DNA of 64,000 nucleotides. Source: Butyrivibrio fibrisolvens 16/4. GTDB taxonomy: Bacteria > Bacillota > Clostridia > Lachnospirales > Lachnospiraceae. Each line of letters begins with the position of its first letter. Positions within the stretch are counted from its first letter, which is position 1. The notes beneath the pieces are model-generated. The model made no database searches and had not been told where the DNA came from. It worked only from the letters and a program-made list of their open reading frames with translations. The stretch covers positions 353,340 through 417,339 of the forward strand of contig FP929036.1 of NCBI GenBank assembly GCA_000209815.1, in the 5' to 3' direction. A program made the position numbers and the translations under genes. Below are positions 63 to 59,823 of this stretch, one piece after another.

Positions 63-197
63 ATGAAATCAGTAAGAAAAATATTTATAGTGCTAATTAT
101 ATCACTTTTACTTTCGGCTACAGCCTCCCACTCACTCTACCAACCTTGTAACAATGGATCAGAGGAAATAGAAGAAGTTTTTAACTCATCTCTATAA
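63..197 (+). CDS. Small secreted peptide, candidate signalling pro-peptide (module 1)
   Basis: This 44-residue ORF has a strong ribosome site and a perfect -10 box. Residues 1-6 (MKSVRK) are basic, residues 7-18 are a hydrophobic core (IFIVLIISLLLS), and ATASHS looks like a signal peptidase region. A polar acidic tail follows, ending in EEIEEVFNSSL. It is not a family I recognise. Its place, tail to tail with an RRNPP-like regulator (46-base gap, no terminator between), and the same arrangement at 57850, suggest an exported peptide whose C-terminal piece is sensed by that regulator. Export and sensing are inference. It could instead be a small lipoprotein-like or toxin peptide, or an orphan signal-bearing ORF. 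Confidence 0.62.
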   Translation: MKSVRKIFIVLIISLLLSATASHSLYQPCNNGSEEIEEVFNSSL

Positions 198-243: not shown

Positions 244-1989
244 TTAAGACACCTTTATTATATACATCAAGTGTGGCTTCTTTTTTTCTGCTTCATAATT
301 ATTCCAATAAATATTATAATTGGCCCGATATAATCCATGAAACCTTTTTAATCTAAAAGAATTTCTTATTATCTTTTCAGAAATATCGTTTGAATCATCA
401 TACTCCCCTAGATTCCCTACCATACTTGCTTCCCAATCTTTTACTAATTCATAAATAGGAAAATGTGAAAGTAATACCTCATTTTTAAGTTCATATAAGC
501 TGCAATCTAAAAATCGTCTATAACAGCTATTAAAGTCTTCTTGCGTTGCAATGTTGTATAACAGAACTTTTTCTCCTTCAGTGAAAAAAAACATTGATGC
601 CTGATTTAAATTATGATCTATTGACAGCTTCCAGGCTTTCTTTAAATTTGCTATATAAATTTGCTTTTCTATACCATTCTCAAATCTTTTCCTCACATTT
701 ACCATCCGTATAATTGCCTGTCTATTAGGTATGTATCTCTTATCTAGTTTATCAACTAGATATTCTATAATTTCAAATGCTTCCTCATACTTTTTCTGAT
801 TAATAAAGACCTTATACTTATTAAATGTTCTAATCATTTTTACATCATCAGTAATTATTTCGGCGCGCCTATACGCTCCTATCAGATTCAATTTTGAAAA
901 CAAACCTTGCATCACATACATCTGTGGTTTTGAATGCTTTGCCTCTATCCTCTCAAGTGTTCTTACAGTACAAACTCCGTCCGCTAACTCGGCCCGCGAA
1001 ATACCAAACATTCTCCTTCTCGTATGAATGACATCTGCTATACAATAAATAATTGAATCTCTGTAAATGTATCCACTCCGACTCATAGGAATATCTGTCG
1101 CATATTTTCCTTCAAAATCATCTAATATTTTAACAACTTCCTTCTCCAATATCAGTTCATCTGAATGATATTTTAGAGTTGATGCCAATTTTTCTCTTGC
1201 TTCTACAAGTTCCTTTAGATAATAAAATCTTTCTGTGTTTTTTAGTACTCGAATAGCTCGTTCCGTATGTTCCCATAGTTTTCTATAATCCCAAGAAATA
1301 TTTGCCTTTCCTACCCCTTGAAATAAAACATAATCAGCAAATGGCAATACTTTAGCTTTTGCTATATCATCAAGTGCTGAATCTTCTACCAAATCTATAA
1401 ATCTGTCATATTTCAGTATGATTTCTCTTACATCTGTGCCATTAGAGACACTTACTCTATAGCTAACCCACTTGATAACATAATAAATTTCCACAGGTGA
1501 CAGAAATATTCTCGAACTATCGCAGTCAAAAATCTCTTTATCAACAGTAAGTCCAACTATCTCCTCATATATACTAAGTAATTCTTTGGAACTAGCTCCA
1601 GCCTGTTCTGTAAATCTAGCTTTCATATCTAATAGAAACTGTTTCTCAATAGCGCTGACAGGATTCCAGCTAGTAACTATCAAATCAAATAGATTTCTTG
1701 CTTCCTCCCATTTAGCTTCCTCTATCAAGCATATTAGTTTCTGCTTTTGTATCCAACGTTCATACTCATCATACTGAACATAATCCTCATACCCTTCTGA
1801 GGAAATCCCCAGTCTGGCCATTATTCTATTTCGCATTAAATAATCTGGAAGTCTTTCTCCATTAAGAATGTAATGCATTTGTGTAGATGAACATAAACCT
1901 CTTCCAACCTGTTCTGGCAAGACACCTCTATCCCTTATAACTGACTCTAATAAAATGTGATATCCAATTAAATCTTTTTCGTACTTCAT
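244..1989 (-). CDS. RRNPP-like peptide-sensing transcription regulator, two HTH motifs (module 1)
   Basis: The protein has 581 residues and two XRE-type helix-turn-helix segments. One is N-terminal, about residues 10-62, with VGRGLCSSTQ. The second is internal, about 317-370, with LADGVCTVRTLERIE. The [AG]-x-G-[LIV]-C-[ST] pattern matches the LAEGICSVSYLS hallmark of PlcR/NprR/Rgg-type HTH domains. The rest is helical and repeat-like, as expected for TPR peptide-binding domains. The second regulator in this window has the same layout and length. The gene faces peptide gene 1 and no terminator separates them, so the two transcripts probably overlap. The sense A7 run at 281-287 is a risk: one extra base there would carry the frame to 137, antisense through the peptide gene. 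Peptide sensing is inferred from family and context. Confidence 0.72.
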   Translation of the reverse strand: MKYEKDLIGYHILLESVIRDRGVLPEQVGRGLCSSTQMHYILNGERLPDYLMRNRIMARLGISSEGYEDYVQYDEYERWIQKQKLICLIEEAKWEEARNLFDLIVTSWNPVSAIEKQFLLDMKARFTEQAGASSKELLSIYEEIVGLTVDKEIFDCDSSRIFLSPVEIYYVIKWVSYRVSVSNGTDVREIILKYDRFIDLVEDSALDDIAKAKVLPFADYVLFQGVGKANISWDYRKLWEHTERAIRVLKNTERFYYLKELVEAREKLASTLKYHSDELILEKEVVKILDDFEGKYATDIPMSRSGYIYRDSIIYCIADVIHTRRRMFGISRAELADGVCTVRTLERIEAKHSKPQMYVMQGLFSKLNLIGAYRRAEIITDDVKMIRTFNKYKVFINQKKYEEAFEIIEYLVDKLDKRYIPNRQAIIRMVNVRKRFENGIEKQIYIANLKKAWKLSIDHNLNQASMFFFTEGEKVLLYNIATQEDFNSCYRRFLDCSLYELKNEVLLSHFPIYELVKDWEASMVGNLGEYDDSNDISEKIIRNSFRLKRFHGLYRANYNIYWNNYEAEKKKPHLMYIIKVS

Positions 1990-2072: not shown

Positions 2073-4716
2073 ATACACTGTCTGCCTGTCGGCTGCAATC
2101 TTATGAAGGAGCTTTAGAGACTCCTTTATTTTTTGTCATCGAGATTTGTGAATGGATCATCCAAAATAAGGATTGGCTTCTCATCTGGGTAGAGCACGTC
2201 TACAAGGGCGAGACGTGAGCAAAGTGCCACCAAATCCTGATAGCCCTGTGAAAGGTACTCAGCGCTCTTTGTGCTTCCAGAATAAGAAAGCTTTATATTT
2301 AAATCCATATCCAGCTCGAAGTCATCAATGGCATAGCCAGACTTTGTGCCATCTGGGCTATCCAAAAGACTAAGATATTTGTGCAATCCGTTCTGAAGCG
2401 GTTGCATATATTTCGACAGGAAGCTCTCTCTTGATTTCTGAAGGAAATCTTCTGTCTTTGCAAGGATATCTGCGTTCTTCTTATATTCCTTTTCCTGCTC
2501 CTCCAGACGCTCAATCTGCTCTGCAATATCTGCCAAGCGCTCCACCTCTTCGAGGGCCTGAGAAAGATTGTCCTTCTCTTGGATAATCTGACGATTCAGC
2601 TCCATAATCTGCTCATCAAGTGCTATCTGTTGCTGCTGCAAATCATCCACTGACTGTACCTGTTCATTTACATCATACATGGATTCAAAATTCGCTATTT
2701 CTTCCTTAAGCTGATTTACTCGCTGAGAAACTGCCTCATACTCTCGTTTTTAATTCCTATAACCTGAACCTTTTCAGCTCTATCGAGACTTTCATCAATA
2801 GGAAAATTTTTCAACACGTTATTTATATCAGCAGTCATTGTACGAATAGTGTTTTCGTGGCGCGCCATCTCCTCCAGCTTGGCAAGATAATCACTGTATC
2901 TCTGTGCATCCTTTTTCAGCTGAGCAAGAAATTCGTATTCGCCACCCATATCATAAAGATTGATTCCATAGGCTGACGCAAAAGGTTGAATCTTTGTGTA
3001 CAGTTCCAGCTGTAAATCAGCCAGCTCATCAAGTGTGCCTTCCGCCTCCTGATGACGAGACTGCTCCTCCGCCATCAAATGCCTGTATTGATCCAGCTTA
3101 CGGCGAATCTCATATACATTTTCCTGCATTGTGGATGCCCTGGTCAGTAGGAAATGAGAAAGGAATTCCTCGCACTCCTCCTCAAGTTCTCTAAGCTCCA
3201 GCTTGCTGACCTCCAAGGAATCCTCTTCCTCTGCGATTCGCTCCGCATAGTCTAGGGCCGTTTCCATCTTTGTTTTATAAGCACGACGGCCTGTAATAAG
3301 AAGAATGAGCAAATCCAGCATCACGGCCACAAAGCTGCCTATTTCTATTATGCGACCTACCTGATCATTGATAAATCTGGTAAATACTACTCCTGTTAAA
3401 ATAAAAATAACCAGAAGAATAGTTCCCAATATATGCCATACCGTAATACTCTTTGACTTGCTGTGGCGCTCCTCTGCATCACGTTCTGCAATAAGTGTAA
3501 TGAGTCTTTCGTTGCTCTGATCTACTCTGGCGCTGATACCAGTAATAAGAGTAGTCTGATGCTCTATGTGAGCCAGCTGCTCATCTGTAGGAACCATTTT
3601 ATCAAAGAAGAATTTTAACTCTGTTAATTGACGATTAGACTCCTCTGAAAGCTTAGCATGCTCTGCCTTCGCTCTAAGCTCCGAAAGATTAGACGCCATC
3701 TTGTTCCAGATAGCAAATTCTCCCTCATCAGGAATCCTGTCCTCAAAAGGTTTTTCAAAAACAGGAGTCTCCTTTTCCTGCTCATCATTAAGAACGTTCA
3801 CAGCTCTTTCGTGAACTGATAAATCGCGCTCTGTCTGCTCCAGGATAACCAGCTCTTCATCTGTTGGAAGTCCTGCTGCAAAAAAGCTATTAAGCTGCTC
3901 CATATGTTCCAGCTCTTTGCCCAGGTTTTCCTTGTGAAGCTTGTAAGCTCCCAGCTCCTGCTCCTTTTTACTCTGAAGCTGAATTGTCTCGGCAAGCTTT
4001 GCTTTATCGGCTGTAAGCTTATCTATATTTGCCTGTTTTTCCTCCACCAGGCAGCTCATAGCCTCTACACTTTCCTCTATGGCTGGAAGCTTTTCATACT
4101 CTTCCTTGCAGCGATTAATCTCCATCTTAACAGCGTAAAGCTTTCCTGGATTAATCTTGGAATTGCGTGTGTAGTTAGTTTTAGCATCCTTCACACTCTT
4201 TAATGCCACATCAAAATTACTAATATCATCCTTTGCTGCTGCAAGATTTCCCATCTTCGCATTAAGAGAATCTGTCATTGCAGTAGCCAGGCTGGTTTGA
4301 GGAATATAGACACTCTTCTCGAAGGAATCTCTATCTACACGGAATAATTCCTCGCCAATATTCTCGCTATAATCGTCAGAAAGAAGCCCTGTTACATTAT
4401 CGTACAGAGCAAAGGTATCATCCTTATCTGACTGGCCAAAGGTACGCTCAATGCGGTACTCCTTGCCCTTAGCCTGAAAAACTATATTTCCACCGCAAAC
4501 ACTTCCGTCCCAAGGCAGATAGTGATTGCGCTCTAATAATTTCTTTTTTGTATTTGGAGAATACTCCAGGCCATAAAACATAGCCTTAATAAACACAGAG
4601 AAGGTGGTCTTGCCCCATCCATTCTCCTGTAAAACGGAATTGAACCCATCTTCAAAATTGAACTTAAATTCATTAATTTTGCCAAAATGGGCGATATAAC
4701 AAGATACTATTTTCAT
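2046..4716 (-). CDS. SbcC/YhaN-like AAA ATPase, DNA repair (two homopolymer frameshifts)
   Basis: This is the ATPase partner of the adjacent phosphoesterase, in the Rad50/SbcC group. Walker A is NGWGKTTFS near residue 33, long coiled coils follow, and the C-terminal part has LSQGYQDLVALCSRLALVD (signature) and LILDDPFTNLDDKK (Walker B). Two short A-runs break the frame: T5 at 2747-2751 and T6 at 2129-2134 on the plus strand. Adding one base at each joins the pieces into about 890 residues and restores the family ending KIKESLKLLHKIAADRQ, then VYFTCHDSRL. Unlike classical SbcC, two hydrophobic segments lie in mid-chain (about 420-470), as I recall for YhaN-type proteins, suggesting membrane association. 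The start overlaps the sbcD-like stop by 4 bases. Confidence 0.85.
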
Positions 4717-54643: not shown

Positions 54644-55105
54644 CTATTCTGGATATGTGAATTCCATGTTTGTCCACGAATTTAGTACCTCTAAGTAACG
54701 CTGGCACTCTTTTTTCGCTAAGGAAATATCCAGATTTTCGTAGTGACCACACTCGATGGCGCTCTTTCCGAATACTTCTCCATCGTGGTTTACAGTCTGT
54801 TCAAACACCTTCTTAACCACTTCAAATGTCTTCTTAGAGTCCACGCCCTTTACAACGAGATAGAAGCCTGTTTGGCATCCCATAGGTCCAAAGTAAATAA
54901 CGTGGTCTGCGATTTCTGAATTACGTATATACGTAGCAATCATATGCTCCACAGAATGCATTGTTGCATTGTCCATGTAATCCCCTGCATTTGGCTTGCG
55001 TGTACGTAAATCATAAGTGATGATATCTCCATCATCTACTCTTGAAATATAAAATCCTGGAGTAAGAATGTTGTGATTAATTGTAAAACTCTTAATTCTT
55101 TCCAT
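54644..55105 (-). CDS. luxS: S-ribosylhomocysteine lyase (AI-2 synthesis)
   Basis: A 153-residue LuxS. The metal ligands are H50 and H54 in HSVEH and C119 in ECGHYENL; the catalytic cysteine C77 is in GPMGCQTGFY and E53 is the conserved glutamate. It makes homocysteine and DPD, the AI-2 precursor. With mtnN it forms the two-step SAH recycling route. Start is standard. No AI-2 receptor is visible in the window. Confidence 0.97.
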   Translation of the reverse strand: MERIKSFTINHNILTPGFYISRVDDGDIITYDLRTRKPNAGDYMDNATMHSVEHMIATYIRNSEIADHVIYFGPMGCQTGFYLVVKGVDSKKTFEVVKKVFEQTVNHDGEVFGKSAIECGHYENLDISLAKKECQRYLEVLNSWTNMEFTYPE

Positions 55106-55198: not shown

Positions 55199-56523
55199 TT
55201 ATGCCTCAATAGCTTCCTGAGGCTCATTATCATCTTCTGACTGAATTGATTCTGTAAACTGTTCTGACTGTTCTTCGCTTTTCTCATCAAAGAGGTAAAG
55301 GAACTTGCTTAATGCAACATCTGCAACTAAAACAACAATACCACTTACAATAAATACTGTCTGTACTGATACAAATGTAACAACACCACTTACAATAAAC
55401 GAAACTACTGGCATAGACATAACGCTCACTGATGTAGCAATAGCCGCTGCACGAGCAATATACTCCTTATTTACATTTCTCATGAAGATAACAGATATCA
55501 TACTATTTCCGATTGAGACACCCATTCCCAACAAAATAGATAATACGGATACTATCACATAAGTAAATATCTTACTGCTGTATAATGGCTCTGCTACTAC
55601 TATGCCAACGTAGAATGCAAATATAGCCACCATCTCTCCCCAATACAGTATCTTCGTTGTAATCCTTTGGGCTATGAATGGATAAACAAATGACCCTAAA
55701 AGCATTCCCACTGTTATTGTGATAGAGAAAATAGAAAGCACCTCTACACCACTGTGAAGTAGCTGCTCTGCCATAGGTGCCTGTAATCCGTTGATAGGAA
55801 CCAACACTGCATTAAGGCATACTGTGTAGAGCAGGAAAAATACAATTATTGCTTCCTTTGAAACGTATTTTACTCCATCAATAAAATCCTTTGTATACTC
55901 ACTAAATTTAAAGACAACCTTCTCTTTCTTAGTCTCATGTGAATTTACAAAAAGAATAATTGCCGCAGACATAATGAATGTAGCCATATCAATATATAAA
56001 GCACCTGAAATACCTACAAGAGCAATGATTCCTGCAGCGCATCCTAAACCAATCAGCTGAACAATCTGAGACAACGAACTACTAAGTGACATTCCGAATT
56101 CATATAACTCATCAGCTAAAACCATTGGTGTTAATGAAGTACTAGCTGGACCTCTGAATGCTTCAACAGTTGAAATAATAAGAGTTGAAATAACTAGCAT
56201 CCATGGCTGTAGCAAATCAACTAAAAACAATGATGCTACCGCAGCAACAACAATAGCACGAATAATATCTGTAACAATCATTATTCGCTTTTTGTTTTTC
56301 CCTCTACCCATGGACCAGCCAATGGTGTGACAACAACAGTTGGTAAATTGTTAATACCAAATATCAAAGCAGACCAGGCTGCTGAACCTGTAATCTGATA
56401 TACAATCCAAGTGCTTGCGATTGCGTCGATAGAATCTCCGAATCGATTGATAAGTGCCGCAAACATTATTTTCACATACTCAGTTTGTGAAAATACGTCT
56501 TTGTACGAGTGCTTTTTGTCCAT
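55199..56523 (-). CDS. MFS transporter (one frameshift)
   Basis: A 12-helix major facilitator of about 441 residues. The MFS motif A region PLAGPWVEGKNKKRIMIVTDIIRA is only read through when one base is added at T5 56295-56299. FGDSIDAIASTWIVYQITGSAAWSA at the N-terminus fits the macrolide-efflux/MFS-3 type. The C-terminus is an acidic Glu/Ser/Gln-rich tail (EKSEEQSEQFTESIQSEDDN). Substrate unknown. Single gene between PfpI and luxS. Confidence 0.88.
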
Positions 56524-57210: not shown

Positions 57211-57662
57211 TTAAAAAATCATTTCCTTTGCCTGAATAGCCTCTAGTATCTCCACATTCTTGATAACTATCTTGCCATCCACAAGCTCTACATCATCCTT
57301 TGAAATCTTGATTTTTCCAACTCCTATTCCATCCCCATTGAAAAAATCCAATTTTTTTCTTCCAAGCCCTTATGCTCCTCTCCCCTATTGTATTTGCAGT
57401 CATATTCAGATATAGCCCCTATAAGAGTATAGTTTCTAAGATCTTTTATGTTATTTTCTCTGAGGGACTGGGCCTCCAGCTCCTCCATTAATCGATGAAG
57501 CTCTTCATACTTTTCCACCAGTAGCTTTGCTCTCTTTTCGTCTAGCAAAGCCAATGTTGCTTTTTTATTATTTATTGTGTCGTCTCTTATAGCAGAAACT
57601 GTATGCTCCATCATTTCCCCAAACTGCTTTGCTTGAGCCTCAATGGTACAAATATCTTTCAT
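57211..57662 (-). CDS. Hypothetical coiled-coil protein (one frameshift)
   Basis: The N-terminal 105 residues are helical and charged (AQAKQFGEMMEHTVSAIRDD, LLDEKRAKLLVEKYEELHRL). One added base in T7 at 57352-57358 reads EEKKLDFFNGDGIGVGKIKI and continues to EILEAIQAKEMIF, total about 150 residues. The C-terminal strand-like part (VELVDGKIVIKNVE) is distinct. No family recognised. Its promoter region is the same intergenic space as the palindrome and peptide 2. Confidence 0.65.
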
Positions 57663-57745
57663 TCACACTGCCTCCATTACACAAACAATAGATTTGCTTA
57701 TTTTAATATTCATCAATATATTTTTATCAAAGCATAAAAACGTAA

Positions 57746-57791
57746 ACAAGGGACAGAGGAGTCAAACTAATTTGACCACTCTGTCCCTTGT
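57746..57791. repeat. Large inverted repeat upstream of peptide gene 2
   Basis: Two 21-base arms, starting ACAAGGGACAGAG and ending CTCTGTCCCTTGT, with GTCAAA/TTTGAC near a 4-base CTAA loop; only two arm positions do not pair. A TTTTT tract follows on the minus strand. It ends 16 bases before the -10 box of peptide gene 2. It could terminate the long minus-strand regulator 2 transcript, or be an operator or a dispersed repeat. Confidence 0.7.
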
Positions 57792-57807
57792 CGGCTTTAC
57801 ATTTTTT

Positions 57808-57841
57808 TATAATAATATAAGTGGAAGTTCATACTAAGGAG
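57808..57841 (+). promoter_or_regulatory. -10 box and ribosome site of peptide gene 2
   Basis: TATAAT at 57808-57813 and AAGGAG at 57836-57841, 8 bases before the ATG. No good -35 is present, which suggests that an activator is needed; the inverted repeat at 57746-57791 covers the -35 area. Confidence 0.6.
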
Positions 57842-57849
57842 AAGTTGTT

Positions 57850-58002
57850 ATGAAGAAAATCAATACTTTTTTACTCATTTTTGGGGTAATCCTCTCAACA
57901 GTAGTAATGCCTGCTGTACAGGTTACTACTGGTACCCAGGCTCAGGGTCAGTTTATCACTGCCGAGCCAAACTCTAACCTTGAGGTAGAATACGTGCTTT
58001 AA
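57850..58002 (+). CDS. Small secreted peptide, candidate signalling pro-peptide (module 2)
   Basis: A 50-residue ORF with a good ribosome site. Residues 2-3 are lysines, residues 6-22 are hydrophobic (TFLLIFGVILSTVVMPA), followed by a polar Thr/Gln/Gly stretch and a C-terminal EPNSNLEVEYVL. It has the same size class, promoter layout and convergent orientation to an RRNPP-like regulator as the gene at 63. Its stop directly abuts the regulator stop at 58003. The mature signal is likely from the C-terminal part. Export and sensing are inference. Confidence 0.68.
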   Translation: MKKINTFLLIFGVILSTVVMPAVQVTTGTQAQGQFITAEPNSNLEVEYVL

Positions 58003-59823
58003 TTAATCCATCCAGTTTTTTCTTTCTTGAATGTTATTAATTATATGTTGCATAAATTCTACACTCTTATTATCTTTAATAAACTCAGACAGGACATAGC
58101 ACACAAATATTTTATGGCAAACGTCATCACTGAACATGTCTTTTTCATTACTTGATTTTACAGAATTCCAAACTATATCATACAGACATTTGTGTGCAGT
58201 CCTGAGTTTATTATTTTCCAAATCCACCTGTAATGACATTCTAGCATATCTATCAGAAAGTAAAAATCTCCAATCTTTTCATATCTATCTGACATCCATC
58301 TAAGTAATATTGCTCTTGATTCTTTTCCTAGATTATTGCAATTATTCTTATCAAATAGTTCTTTAAAGAAGTCCAACAAAACTATATTTTTGTATGTGTC
58401 TGTGACCATAGTCATATAAAAAGACATTGAACCTCCATCCCTGTAAAATAACCTTCTCCTATATTGGTATTCTCATTTAATTGTACAGTAATAGAGAGAG
58501 CCTCATCTAGTTGTTCTAAATACACCTCTTGAGAAATATTTCCCATAGTGTAGTTCAAATATGCTTTATCCATTTTTAGCATCTGTTCGTTCTGAGGATT
58601 TTTTTCTGCATATTGTTCTAAGTACGACAAAAGGTAATTTGCTTGAATATACTTTCTATCTCTAAGTGCCATACGTAATTCATGGGCTGTTCTCAAAACC
58701 TCCCAATCATCAGTAATATAATTATCATACTGAGTCTCCCCTGGCAGATTTAGTCTCTGCATCAATGGCTCAATAACCGCATACTGACTATTCACTATCC
58801 CCTGCTCGATTCTGCGCAAGGTCTTTACACTACATATTCCATCTGCAAGCTGGCTTTGAGTAAGCCCCAACAATGAGCGACGTTTTCTAATCATATCAGA
58901 AATATCTATAGATACTTCATCGTACAAAAAGTAAACACCACATTCGGTGTTGTTCTTTACCTCTGCTATCTTGTAGATTTCTTCTAACGCCTTGATTCGA
59001 TTATCATAGGCTTCCTTTTCTTTGTCTGCGCCAGCCATTCCATCAAAAATAAAGGCCTTTATCTTTAAAAGGTCCATAAGATTAAATGAACGATTGGATT
59101 TTATAAGCATCTCAAGAGCTCTATCCACCCTATTGTTTAGCAATAAGATATTGAAATACTCTGAGTCTTTAACCAGCTCGTAATATTGTTCCAAAGCAAA
59201 AGAATATATTCCGCACTTCTTGGTCTCTACAATATCACTTCGCTCGATTTTATCTAAAATAGCTAACAGGCAATCTGTGTTTTCCTCTAATTTTGAGACA
59301 TCCGCTTTTGCCTTACTATAACAGCGCATAACAAGATAATAATATTCTATAGGTGCCAAAAGATATTGATTAAGGCTTGCCCTATCAATTCCTGCCATAG
59401 TACACTCCACAGCTTTTTCATAGGCAGAGTTTGCCCCCTGATAGTCTCTTTCAGAAAAACATATCAATCCTAAAACATCATAATAAAACTGTTTTGATAT
59501 AGCATCTGACTCAACAATTCTCTCCTCTATAACAGACTTTTGAGCCTTTAGTGCATCCCAGTCTTCCTCCTTAATCATTTTTACAAACTGGTTCTTTTCT
59601 CTCTGATCAAAGTATTCCTTCCCTTTAAATACATTCACATAGCTCTGGAAGGAACCTCCCAGTCTATCTAAAAGTCTTTGGCGAAGCTCAACACTAGGGA
59701 TTTTTTCTCCCTTTTCAATATAAGAAAGCAGACTGACACTACACAGCCCGTGAGCAAGCTGCTTCTGACTTACCTTTTTTCAAGTCGCATAGACTTTATC
59801 ATTTTAAAATAATACTCGCTCAA
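58003..59823 (-). CDS. RRNPP-like peptide-sensing regulator, two HTH motifs (module 2, three frameshifts)
   Basis: Four pieces in different frames form one protein of about 607 residues if one base is added at T6 59775-59780, A4 58445-58448 and A5 58262-58266. The first HTH (residues about 5-60) has KKVSQKQLAHGLCSVSLLSY and the second (about 305-360) has LTQSQLADGICSVKTLRRIE; both match the RRNPP hallmark. Between and after are helical repeats. It aligns with the regulator at 244-1989 over its length, including YFYRDGGSMSFY against FFFTEGEKVLLY. A TTG start with AGGGG upstream is inferred. It lies 27 bases after the MerR gene and faces peptide 2. Three indels could also mean a dead gene. Confidence 0.72.

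Follow-up and report, generated by a model that had tools for sequence, protein, structure and literature searches.

A cassette at 57850-59823 of the DNA analyzed here, a 64,000-nucleotide stretch of the Butyrivibrio fibrisolvens 16/4 genome (hereafter the window), probably represents a double-receptor variant of RRNPP quorum sensing that controls RiPP or other secreted-peptide genes. If so, gut and rumen bacteria would harbor a new architecture of peptide quorum-sensing receptor, one excluded by a published length rule; silent clusters for RiPPs and other secreted peptides could be turned on there with a synthetic peptide, and the two-way palindrome of the cassette would serve as a sequence marker for finding more of them. 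Among the observations that count against this explanation, the window regulator is frame-broken, and operator-like palindromes also occur away from recognized cassettes (L085 and L151).

What does the window cassette contain? An ATG-initiated ORF of 50 aa on the forward strand (57850..58002, +), with a basic start followed by a hydrophobic stretch, is a candidate signal-peptide-bearing pheromone precursor, and a counterpart adjoins the regulator's ortholog, L004. The first-pass annotation had described a 50-residue signal-type ORF abutting the regulator stop to stop, and indeed there are 0 bases between the ORF's stop and the last regulator frame (58003-58239, -); its loss from a close relative that keeps the regulator, which would have spoken against the pairing, was not seen. 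The ribosome-binding site AAGGAG lies, as first described, 8 bases before the peptide ATG (57836..57841, +). The -10 of the peptide gene, TATAAT (57808..57813, +), is 42 bp off the axis of the palindrome described below. This box had been said to lack a good -35; the box itself stands, and the absence of a -35 is nearly right, as a promoter scan pairs a weak -35, TTGTCG at 57788 on the palindrome edge, with AATAAT 17 bases on. The scan found 2 promoter-like sites at this peptide gene vs. 1.8 in shuffles. A gene for LuxS (S-ribosylhomocysteinase, Pfam E 8.4e-46) lies at 54644-55105 (-), ~2.7 kb from the peptide ORF.

The convergent gene (58003..59823, -) encodes a double-HTH/TPR regulator of ~610 aa. 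It is not one ORF; homology passes through three frames, with breaks at about 59775, 58418, and 58262, each at a run of 5-6 equal bases. Its ortholog L004 (genome G018, a member of the window genus; L022 is the same stretch) is a single open frame of 611 aa with 63% identity to the window regulator. The first HTH domain (59642..59811, -, aligned to L004 residues 8-64) is not intact in the window and was therefore judged from the ortholog, in which Pfam places HTH_3 in two stretches, while the second (58736..58903, -, aligned to L004 residues 311-366) exceeds the Pfam cut-off in the window piece itself. The double HTH proposed from the first reading is thus upheld. Identity between window and ortholog is 79% and 89% in the HTHs vs. 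60% and 55% in the TPR halves, which suggests that the putative sensing part evolves faster.

On the other side of the cassette, a divergent gene, a 112-aa ORF with GGAGG (57324..57662, -), has no Pfam family at 0.01 and overlaps, in another frame, the ORF of a RiPP precursor leader-like stretch (57223..57315, -). In this stretch, 23/31 residues match those of a precursor-like ORF next to the ortholog (74% identity over 31 residues, E 1.7e-9, the only genome match at E ≤1); no core follows it, and no maturase adjoins. At the ortholog (L022), the divergent operon encodes an M16 peptidase (Pfam; weakly YfmH-like) and a protein of 174 aa, followed by two precursor-like ORFs (55 and 56 aa) and a B12-radical-SAM protein whose closest family is ApyD (E 8.3e-39, well short of that family's cut-off); the contig end cuts the gene of this last protein. 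Is the window copy, then, a decaying relic that has lost its RiPP operon and no longer signals? We consider this quite possible. Three frame breaks fall in one regulator gene, the precursor leader is left without a visible core, and the ortholog's M16 and B12-radical-SAM genes do not adjoin the window cassette. Furthermore, two other broken genes that we inspected have no long one-base run at their break regions, so not every break is marked as a run error. Against this, each of the three regulator breaks falls on a run of 5-6 equal bases, and the peptide ORF, Shine-Dalgarno (SD) sequence, -10, and palindrome of the window are intact. Other genes of the assembly are broken as well, which fits sequencing error: the ABC genes near the genome's third cassette (see below) and the window genes at 2126-4716 and 55199-56523, whose breaks suggest short-indel assembly errors or local decay. 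Sequencing error is thus a fair explanation of the regulator breaks, and the number of breaks in one gene, together with those elsewhere that lack a long run, also allows for decay. Under the quorum-sensing explanation, all that is left of the target cluster at this locus would be a remnant of a precursor leader, and one or the other would have broken the regulator frame.

To which proteins is the receptor related, and how is it built? In a set of 44 fused regulators, the N half aligns to the C half across 261 columns (E 6.5e-37), which indicates duplication of the whole HTH+TPR unit. HTH-like stretches occupy both places in the alignment of these 44 proteins, which, like the other fused regulators, fall within 575-699 aa, and HTH_3 was found in all 6 fused regulators run against Pfam. 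Six split loci (L047, L048, L050, L070, L072, and L073) carry two adjacent genes of ~310 aa in place of the fused one; in 6/6, the N-half model is the better fit for the upstream gene and the C-half model for the downstream gene, and in 5/6 a convergent peptide ORF accompanies the downstream gene. Five loci of a second set (L106 and L137-L140; the two sets are described below) likewise have two single-unit genes side by side, with a peptide ORF at L106 only. A profile of 20 fused members matched PlcR residues 10-285 end to end with its C half (E 1.5e-16, profile positions 313-604) and the start of Rgg2 with its N half (E 1.5e-6); an engineered TPR protein had the best E-value for this profile but no significant single stretch. 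In an AF2 model of the ortholog (pLDDT 80, pTM 0.81), the two best Foldseek matches were both PlcR (E 8.7e-5 and 4.8e-4), the N half superposed on NprR (Z 17.0, rmsd 3.0, 193 residues), and the C half superposed on PlcR (Z 14.0, rmsd 3.0, 210 residues). Because unrelated TPR proteins reach structural scores near those of NprR and PlcR, the main weight falls on the sequence match to PlcR. The TPR domain is thus homologous to those of known RRNPP receptors, and the regulator is two whole PlcR/Rgg-like units in tandem.

Is the window cassette one of a family? Genome G000, to which the window belongs (3.16 Mb, one contig), encodes three such regulators, each with a convergent signal-type ORF. One is the paralogous double-HTH regulator at the start of the window (244..1989, -), with an apparently frame-broken 3' end; the third, found by counting cassettes across the genome as had been suggested, lies at G000:C1:2647036-2648832. 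The regulator at 244-1989 is homologous to that of the cassette studied here over query residues 8-391 (E 8.5e-24). The alignment thus runs beyond the HTH, where its ending would have undermined paralogy, and identity between the two is 17-19% in the TPR halves vs. 33-43% in the HTHs. The small signal-type ORF of this other cassette (63..197, +) has its stop 46 nt before the regulator, so that the first window module, convergent like the others, does not abut. That the two modules belong to a paralogous peptide/regulator signaling family, as the first-pass annotation suspected, is borne out by the three cassettes, by recurrence in other genera, and by profile and fold matches to PlcR, NprR, and Rgg. 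Its further suggestion that differing peptide sequences would confer differing specificity agrees with C-termini that diverge between the peptides and with TPR halves that change faster than the HTHs. That annotation did not include the regulator's internal duplication, the palindrome, the RiPP-type genes on the divergent side, or the lack of abutment in the first module.

How widespread is the double form? Relatives at E 1e-20 were found in 3/29 genomes of the window genus. Scoring the best 3 candidates per genome, we found matches in 28/397 genomes of the window family, in 21 of which one match covers at least 480 of 602 model positions, and in 56/392 genomes of the order (which we take to be Lachnospirales), single-unit relatives counted. 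A phylum-wide draw of 398 genomes, scored in the same way, held seven matching genomes besides G000, all of them single-unit with open frames of 210-333 aa. Within these draws, therefore, the double form is seen only inside the order. Named carriers are Pseudobutyrivibrio metagenome-assembled genomes (MAGs) from deer reticulum and one Butyrivibrio MAG. A plasmid or phage origin is unsupported, as neither collection held an L004 relative at E 1e-10. Two variants of the arrangement were also observed: in G006:C117 (L009 and L011), a more distant double-unit regulator of 633 aa is convergent with an ORF that by eye is SPASM radical-SAM-like, and in G401 (L055/L032), two fused regulators lie in tandem on one strand, of which, by the fixed rules given next, only the downstream one has a convergent peptide ORF.

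How regularly does a peptide gene accompany the regulator? We applied fixed rules (an ATG, a purine-rich SD, 28-80 codons, a hydrophobic stretch after a basic residue, and an end no more than ~60 nt from the stop of the regulator), with signal sequences judged by a simple hydrophobicity rule. A convergent signal-type ORF was present at 45/69 fused regulators vs. 1/179 control genes of the same loci, the sole control match being the 3' fragment of a stop-interrupted regulator. By set, the counts were 30/42 vs. 1/98 in the first (44 fused regulators with L057 and L009, at contig edges, dropped before counting for want of flank) and 15/27 vs. 0/81 in the second, which includes L133, whose ORF looks spurious. 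These numbers agree with the earlier view that chance is an unlikely cause of the recurrence. Because a model derived from the first set was used to find the second, the two are not fully independent; in addition, some loci are close relatives of each other (e.g., L097 and L099). A total of 24/69 fused regulators had no peptide ORF by the fixed rules, including L023, which has an ORF with a poor SD; single-unit regulators had one in 5/19 and 3/21 cases. An adjacent small gene for a propeptide of predicted export, as is typical of RRNPP systems, is thus a frequent companion of the fused receptor. The precursors are 39-73 aa long with a signal sequence and an acidic C-terminus (the last 20 residues are net acidic in 49/52 peptides, L133 excluded), and the commonest spacing between peptide gene and regulator is a 4-nt overlap.

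We also asked what lies on the divergent side of these cassettes. A minority of them have RiPP clusters among the divergent genes. We found a radical-SAM motif in 6/43 divergent flanks vs. 0/47 flanks at the regulator 5' side (L133 excluded), and reading 20 divergent flanks extended to 4-8 kb revealed a clear RiPP maturase in 6; the other ~14/20 held secreted proteins, transporters, or nothing suggestive. Pfam radical-SAM proteins are divergent at L008, L067, L100, L106, and L122, a SPASM protein at L098, a piece of a CXXX-repeat peptide maturase at L065 (NCBIfam E 8.2e-96, just under the cut-off), and a ThiF-family protein (Pfam) at L046, followed by genes that by eye are M16 peptidase-like and ABC transporter-like. 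All NCBIfam radical-SAM matches fall under the curated cut-offs of specific families. Short precursor-like ORFs adjoin several of these RiPP-type genes. Pfam named none of five divergent secreted or orphan proteins (L043, L153, L073, L028, and L152); L153 and L073 had no NCBIfam match either, and a lactococcin-972-like reading of these two was dropped for lack of evidence. Likewise, a 290-aa protein beside L064, taken by eye for part of a lantibiotic dehydratase, gave no match.

What element might connect the peptide gene to its divergent neighbor? In the window, a 46-bp palindrome (57746..57791) is a candidate two-way operator. Searching the 200 bp ahead of each peptide ATG, we found a strong palindrome (best score 12 or more) in 31/51 cassettes vs. 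19/937 control windows: 20/33 vs. 7/601 random windows of the same loci in the first set (without L051, excluded for shortness) and 11/18 vs. 12/336 in the second. In 8 of the cassettes counted here (5 in the first set and 3 in the second), the peptide gene adjoins a single-unit regulator; masking of its upstream DNA kept L003, the cassette at the window start, out of both the palindrome and the promoter counts. The remaining 20/51 peptide-bearing cassettes had no strong palindrome. Lengths range from 37 to 71 bp. Six Pseudobutyrivibrio-type sites show 15 cells changed on both arms and 0 on one arm, and eight CCATGAC-type sites show 17 and 2, respectively; because sites were picked by palindrome score, their pairing and, in part, the two-sided changes follow from that choice, so these counts support selection on the dyad without proving it. 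With ≤1 mismatch allowed, the window has 7 copies of a single arm vs. 4.7 expected, which does not exceed chance, and the two exact copies are the palindrome's own arms.

Genomes were also searched with covariance models of the palindromes, scoring the best 150 candidates per genome. With the first type, only the two unmasked peptide promoters of G000 scored below E 1 (next, E 4.6). At E <1e-3, the same model recovered, in six other genomes, four cassette sites in G018 and G006 and, in G414, one cassette site (L028) and one elsewhere (L085), between two converging ORFs. Genus members without the regulator (G003, G008, and G009) had no first-model site below 1e-3, with one in G008 at 0.002. The second, CCATGAC-type model found mostly cassettes, plus L149, L151, L152, and L153. 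A small signal-type ORF adjoins the palindrome at L152 and L153, and at L149 the palindrome is near a radical-SAM gene. L151 has a strong operator-type palindrome with no recognized cassette in the stretch examined.

How are these palindromes placed relative to promoters? On the peptide side, the best -10-like hexamer is 42-50 bp away from the axis in 20/31 cassettes, and on the divergent side in 19/32 (L133 excluded); any other 9-bp bin holds the best hexamer of ≤3 cassettes. In 1,000 dinucleotide shuffles, the means were 6.5 (peptide side) and 4.2 (divergent side), with maxima of 14 and 10, and mononucleotide shuffles agreed. Distances on the two sides are equal in L052 and L130 (44/44), L002 (46/46), and L098 and L126 (45/45). 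Matched distances imply that a protein at the axis could serve both promoters alike, and the palindrome looks like one two-way operator, for which its symmetry and placement make it a candidate. In the window, the TATATT at 57715..57720 (-), a possible -10 of the divergent gene, is ~51 bp off the axis and outside the 42-50 range; another one, 66 bp out, is the best-scoring -10-like hexamer on that side. Activation is the role of PlcR and of most Rgg proteins, and a weak -35 with a palindrome at and upstream of it is the usual position for an activator. Both facts make it unlikely that the receptor is instead a repressor released by the peptide, although some profile matches are named repressors or antitoxins. 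It is more improbable still that the effector is the product of the small ORF, acting as a secreted peptide with an antimicrobial or other role, and that the regulator senses something else. The signal sequence and variable C-terminus of the ORF would suit such a role, as would the strong palindrome sites of G000, which occur only at peptide genes. However, the nearest full-unit matches of solved structure include peptide receptors, the small ORF is frequently convergent with one receptor family, and the divergent clusters fit an antimicrobial role better than it does. It is highly improbable that the palindrome works in RNA, as a hairpin or transcription terminator, instead of binding a protein, for although the window palindrome folds very stably as RNA (z -8.2) and the L085 palindrome between converging ORFs belongs to the same model, no terminator-like site was called at 57600-58100, a -10-like box sits at the preferred distance on both sides, and one-sided arm changes are few (0 and 2), though an RNA stem would tolerate G-U.

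How might the cassette work as an RRNPP-type quorum-sensing system? With the whole HTH+TPR unit duplicated in one chain, the receptor would act as an RRNPP-type peptide switch. The small ORF product would be exported via its signal sequence and then trimmed, and its acidic C-terminal part would re-enter the cell and bind the TPR units. The receptor, probably a dimer with four HTHs, would bind the long palindrome, which lies beside the -35 regions of two divergent promoters, and would activate both. One promoter would drive the peptide gene, creating positive feedback; the other would drive the target operon, which in some cassettes is a RiPP cluster by gene content. A more elaborate, two-input version strikes us as rather unlikely: each chain would have two unequal pockets, and only when both were occupied, by two copies of the cassette's peptide or by one of these plus a foreign peptide, would the four HTHs grip the palindrome and fire both promoters together, each HTH reading one quarter. 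A dyad inside each arm (GACAA-AG-TTGTC) occurs in the Pseudobutyrivibrio-type sites and a few others, not in all, so the one-quarter assignment is only an idea.

How does this arrangement compare with known systems? As in PlcR/PapR, a small exported-type peptide gene adjoins the receptor gene, and the C-terminal unit of the receptor matches the HTH and TPR fold end to end. Unlike PlcR, which has a single unit per chain, the cassette receptor consists of two whole units; its peptide gene is convergent and often overlapping, and its palindromes span 37-71 bp with promoters on both sides, whereas the PlcR box is about 16 bp. The group III Rgg/SHP systems of streptococci have a peptide gene that is convergent with the receptor gene and overlaps its 3' end (PMC13361665), an arrangement shared by the cassettes. 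The SHPs of this group are rich in hydrophobic residues, in contrast to the cassette peptides, which have acidic C-termini (49/52), 39-73 aa, and a signal sequence, and the cassette receptor has double the length. In solventogenic clostridia, the Qsr/QssR receptors are RRNPP proteins counted among receptors of 285-473 aa (PMC10075063); they resemble ours as RRNPP-type receptors in Clostridia, a likeness by description, not by sequence. The same source states that RRNPP_detector accepts receptors of 250-500 aa, a range set from validated receptors of 285-473 aa (PMC10075063). At 575-699 aa, the fused receptors fall outside this range, which is a search default and not a biological definition, so that the program, as described there, would skip them. 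Within titles and abstract openings, from a literature collection that largely leaves aside subscription journals and preprints, we found none on double-length RRNPP receptors or on RRNPP systems in Lachnospiraceae, and one article (PMC10885120) contains Rgg, Lachnospiraceae, and RiPP. Within that scope, the double-length receptor variant appears to be new, while the RRNPP kind, the convergent overlap, and Rgg/SHP control of radical-SAM RiPPs are already known.

The last of these precedents comes from streptococci, in which Rgg/SHP systems are reported to control radical-SAM RiPPs (PMC8092268). Like PdrA/SHP-wgk and the other Rgg-controlled RaS-RiPP systems covered there, the cassettes can place a quorum-sensing receptor and its peptide beside a radical-SAM RiPP operon (PMC8092268). 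In PdrA/SHP-wgk, the SHP and receptor genes are divergent and a 17-nt motif is proposed for each promoter, whereas in our cassettes one palindrome seems to serve both promoters. One cassette (L026) faces a 22-aa ORF with a weak SD that shares NSWGK with tryglysin A, VNSWGKH (PMC8092268); the contig ends there, so no enzyme is visible. The tiny precursor-like ORFs of L025 and L026 had no NCBIfam match. That of L025 (L025:6120-6191) and a 25-codon ORF at L170, from different genomes, share an RGCG motif and are possible precursors of one RiPP class.
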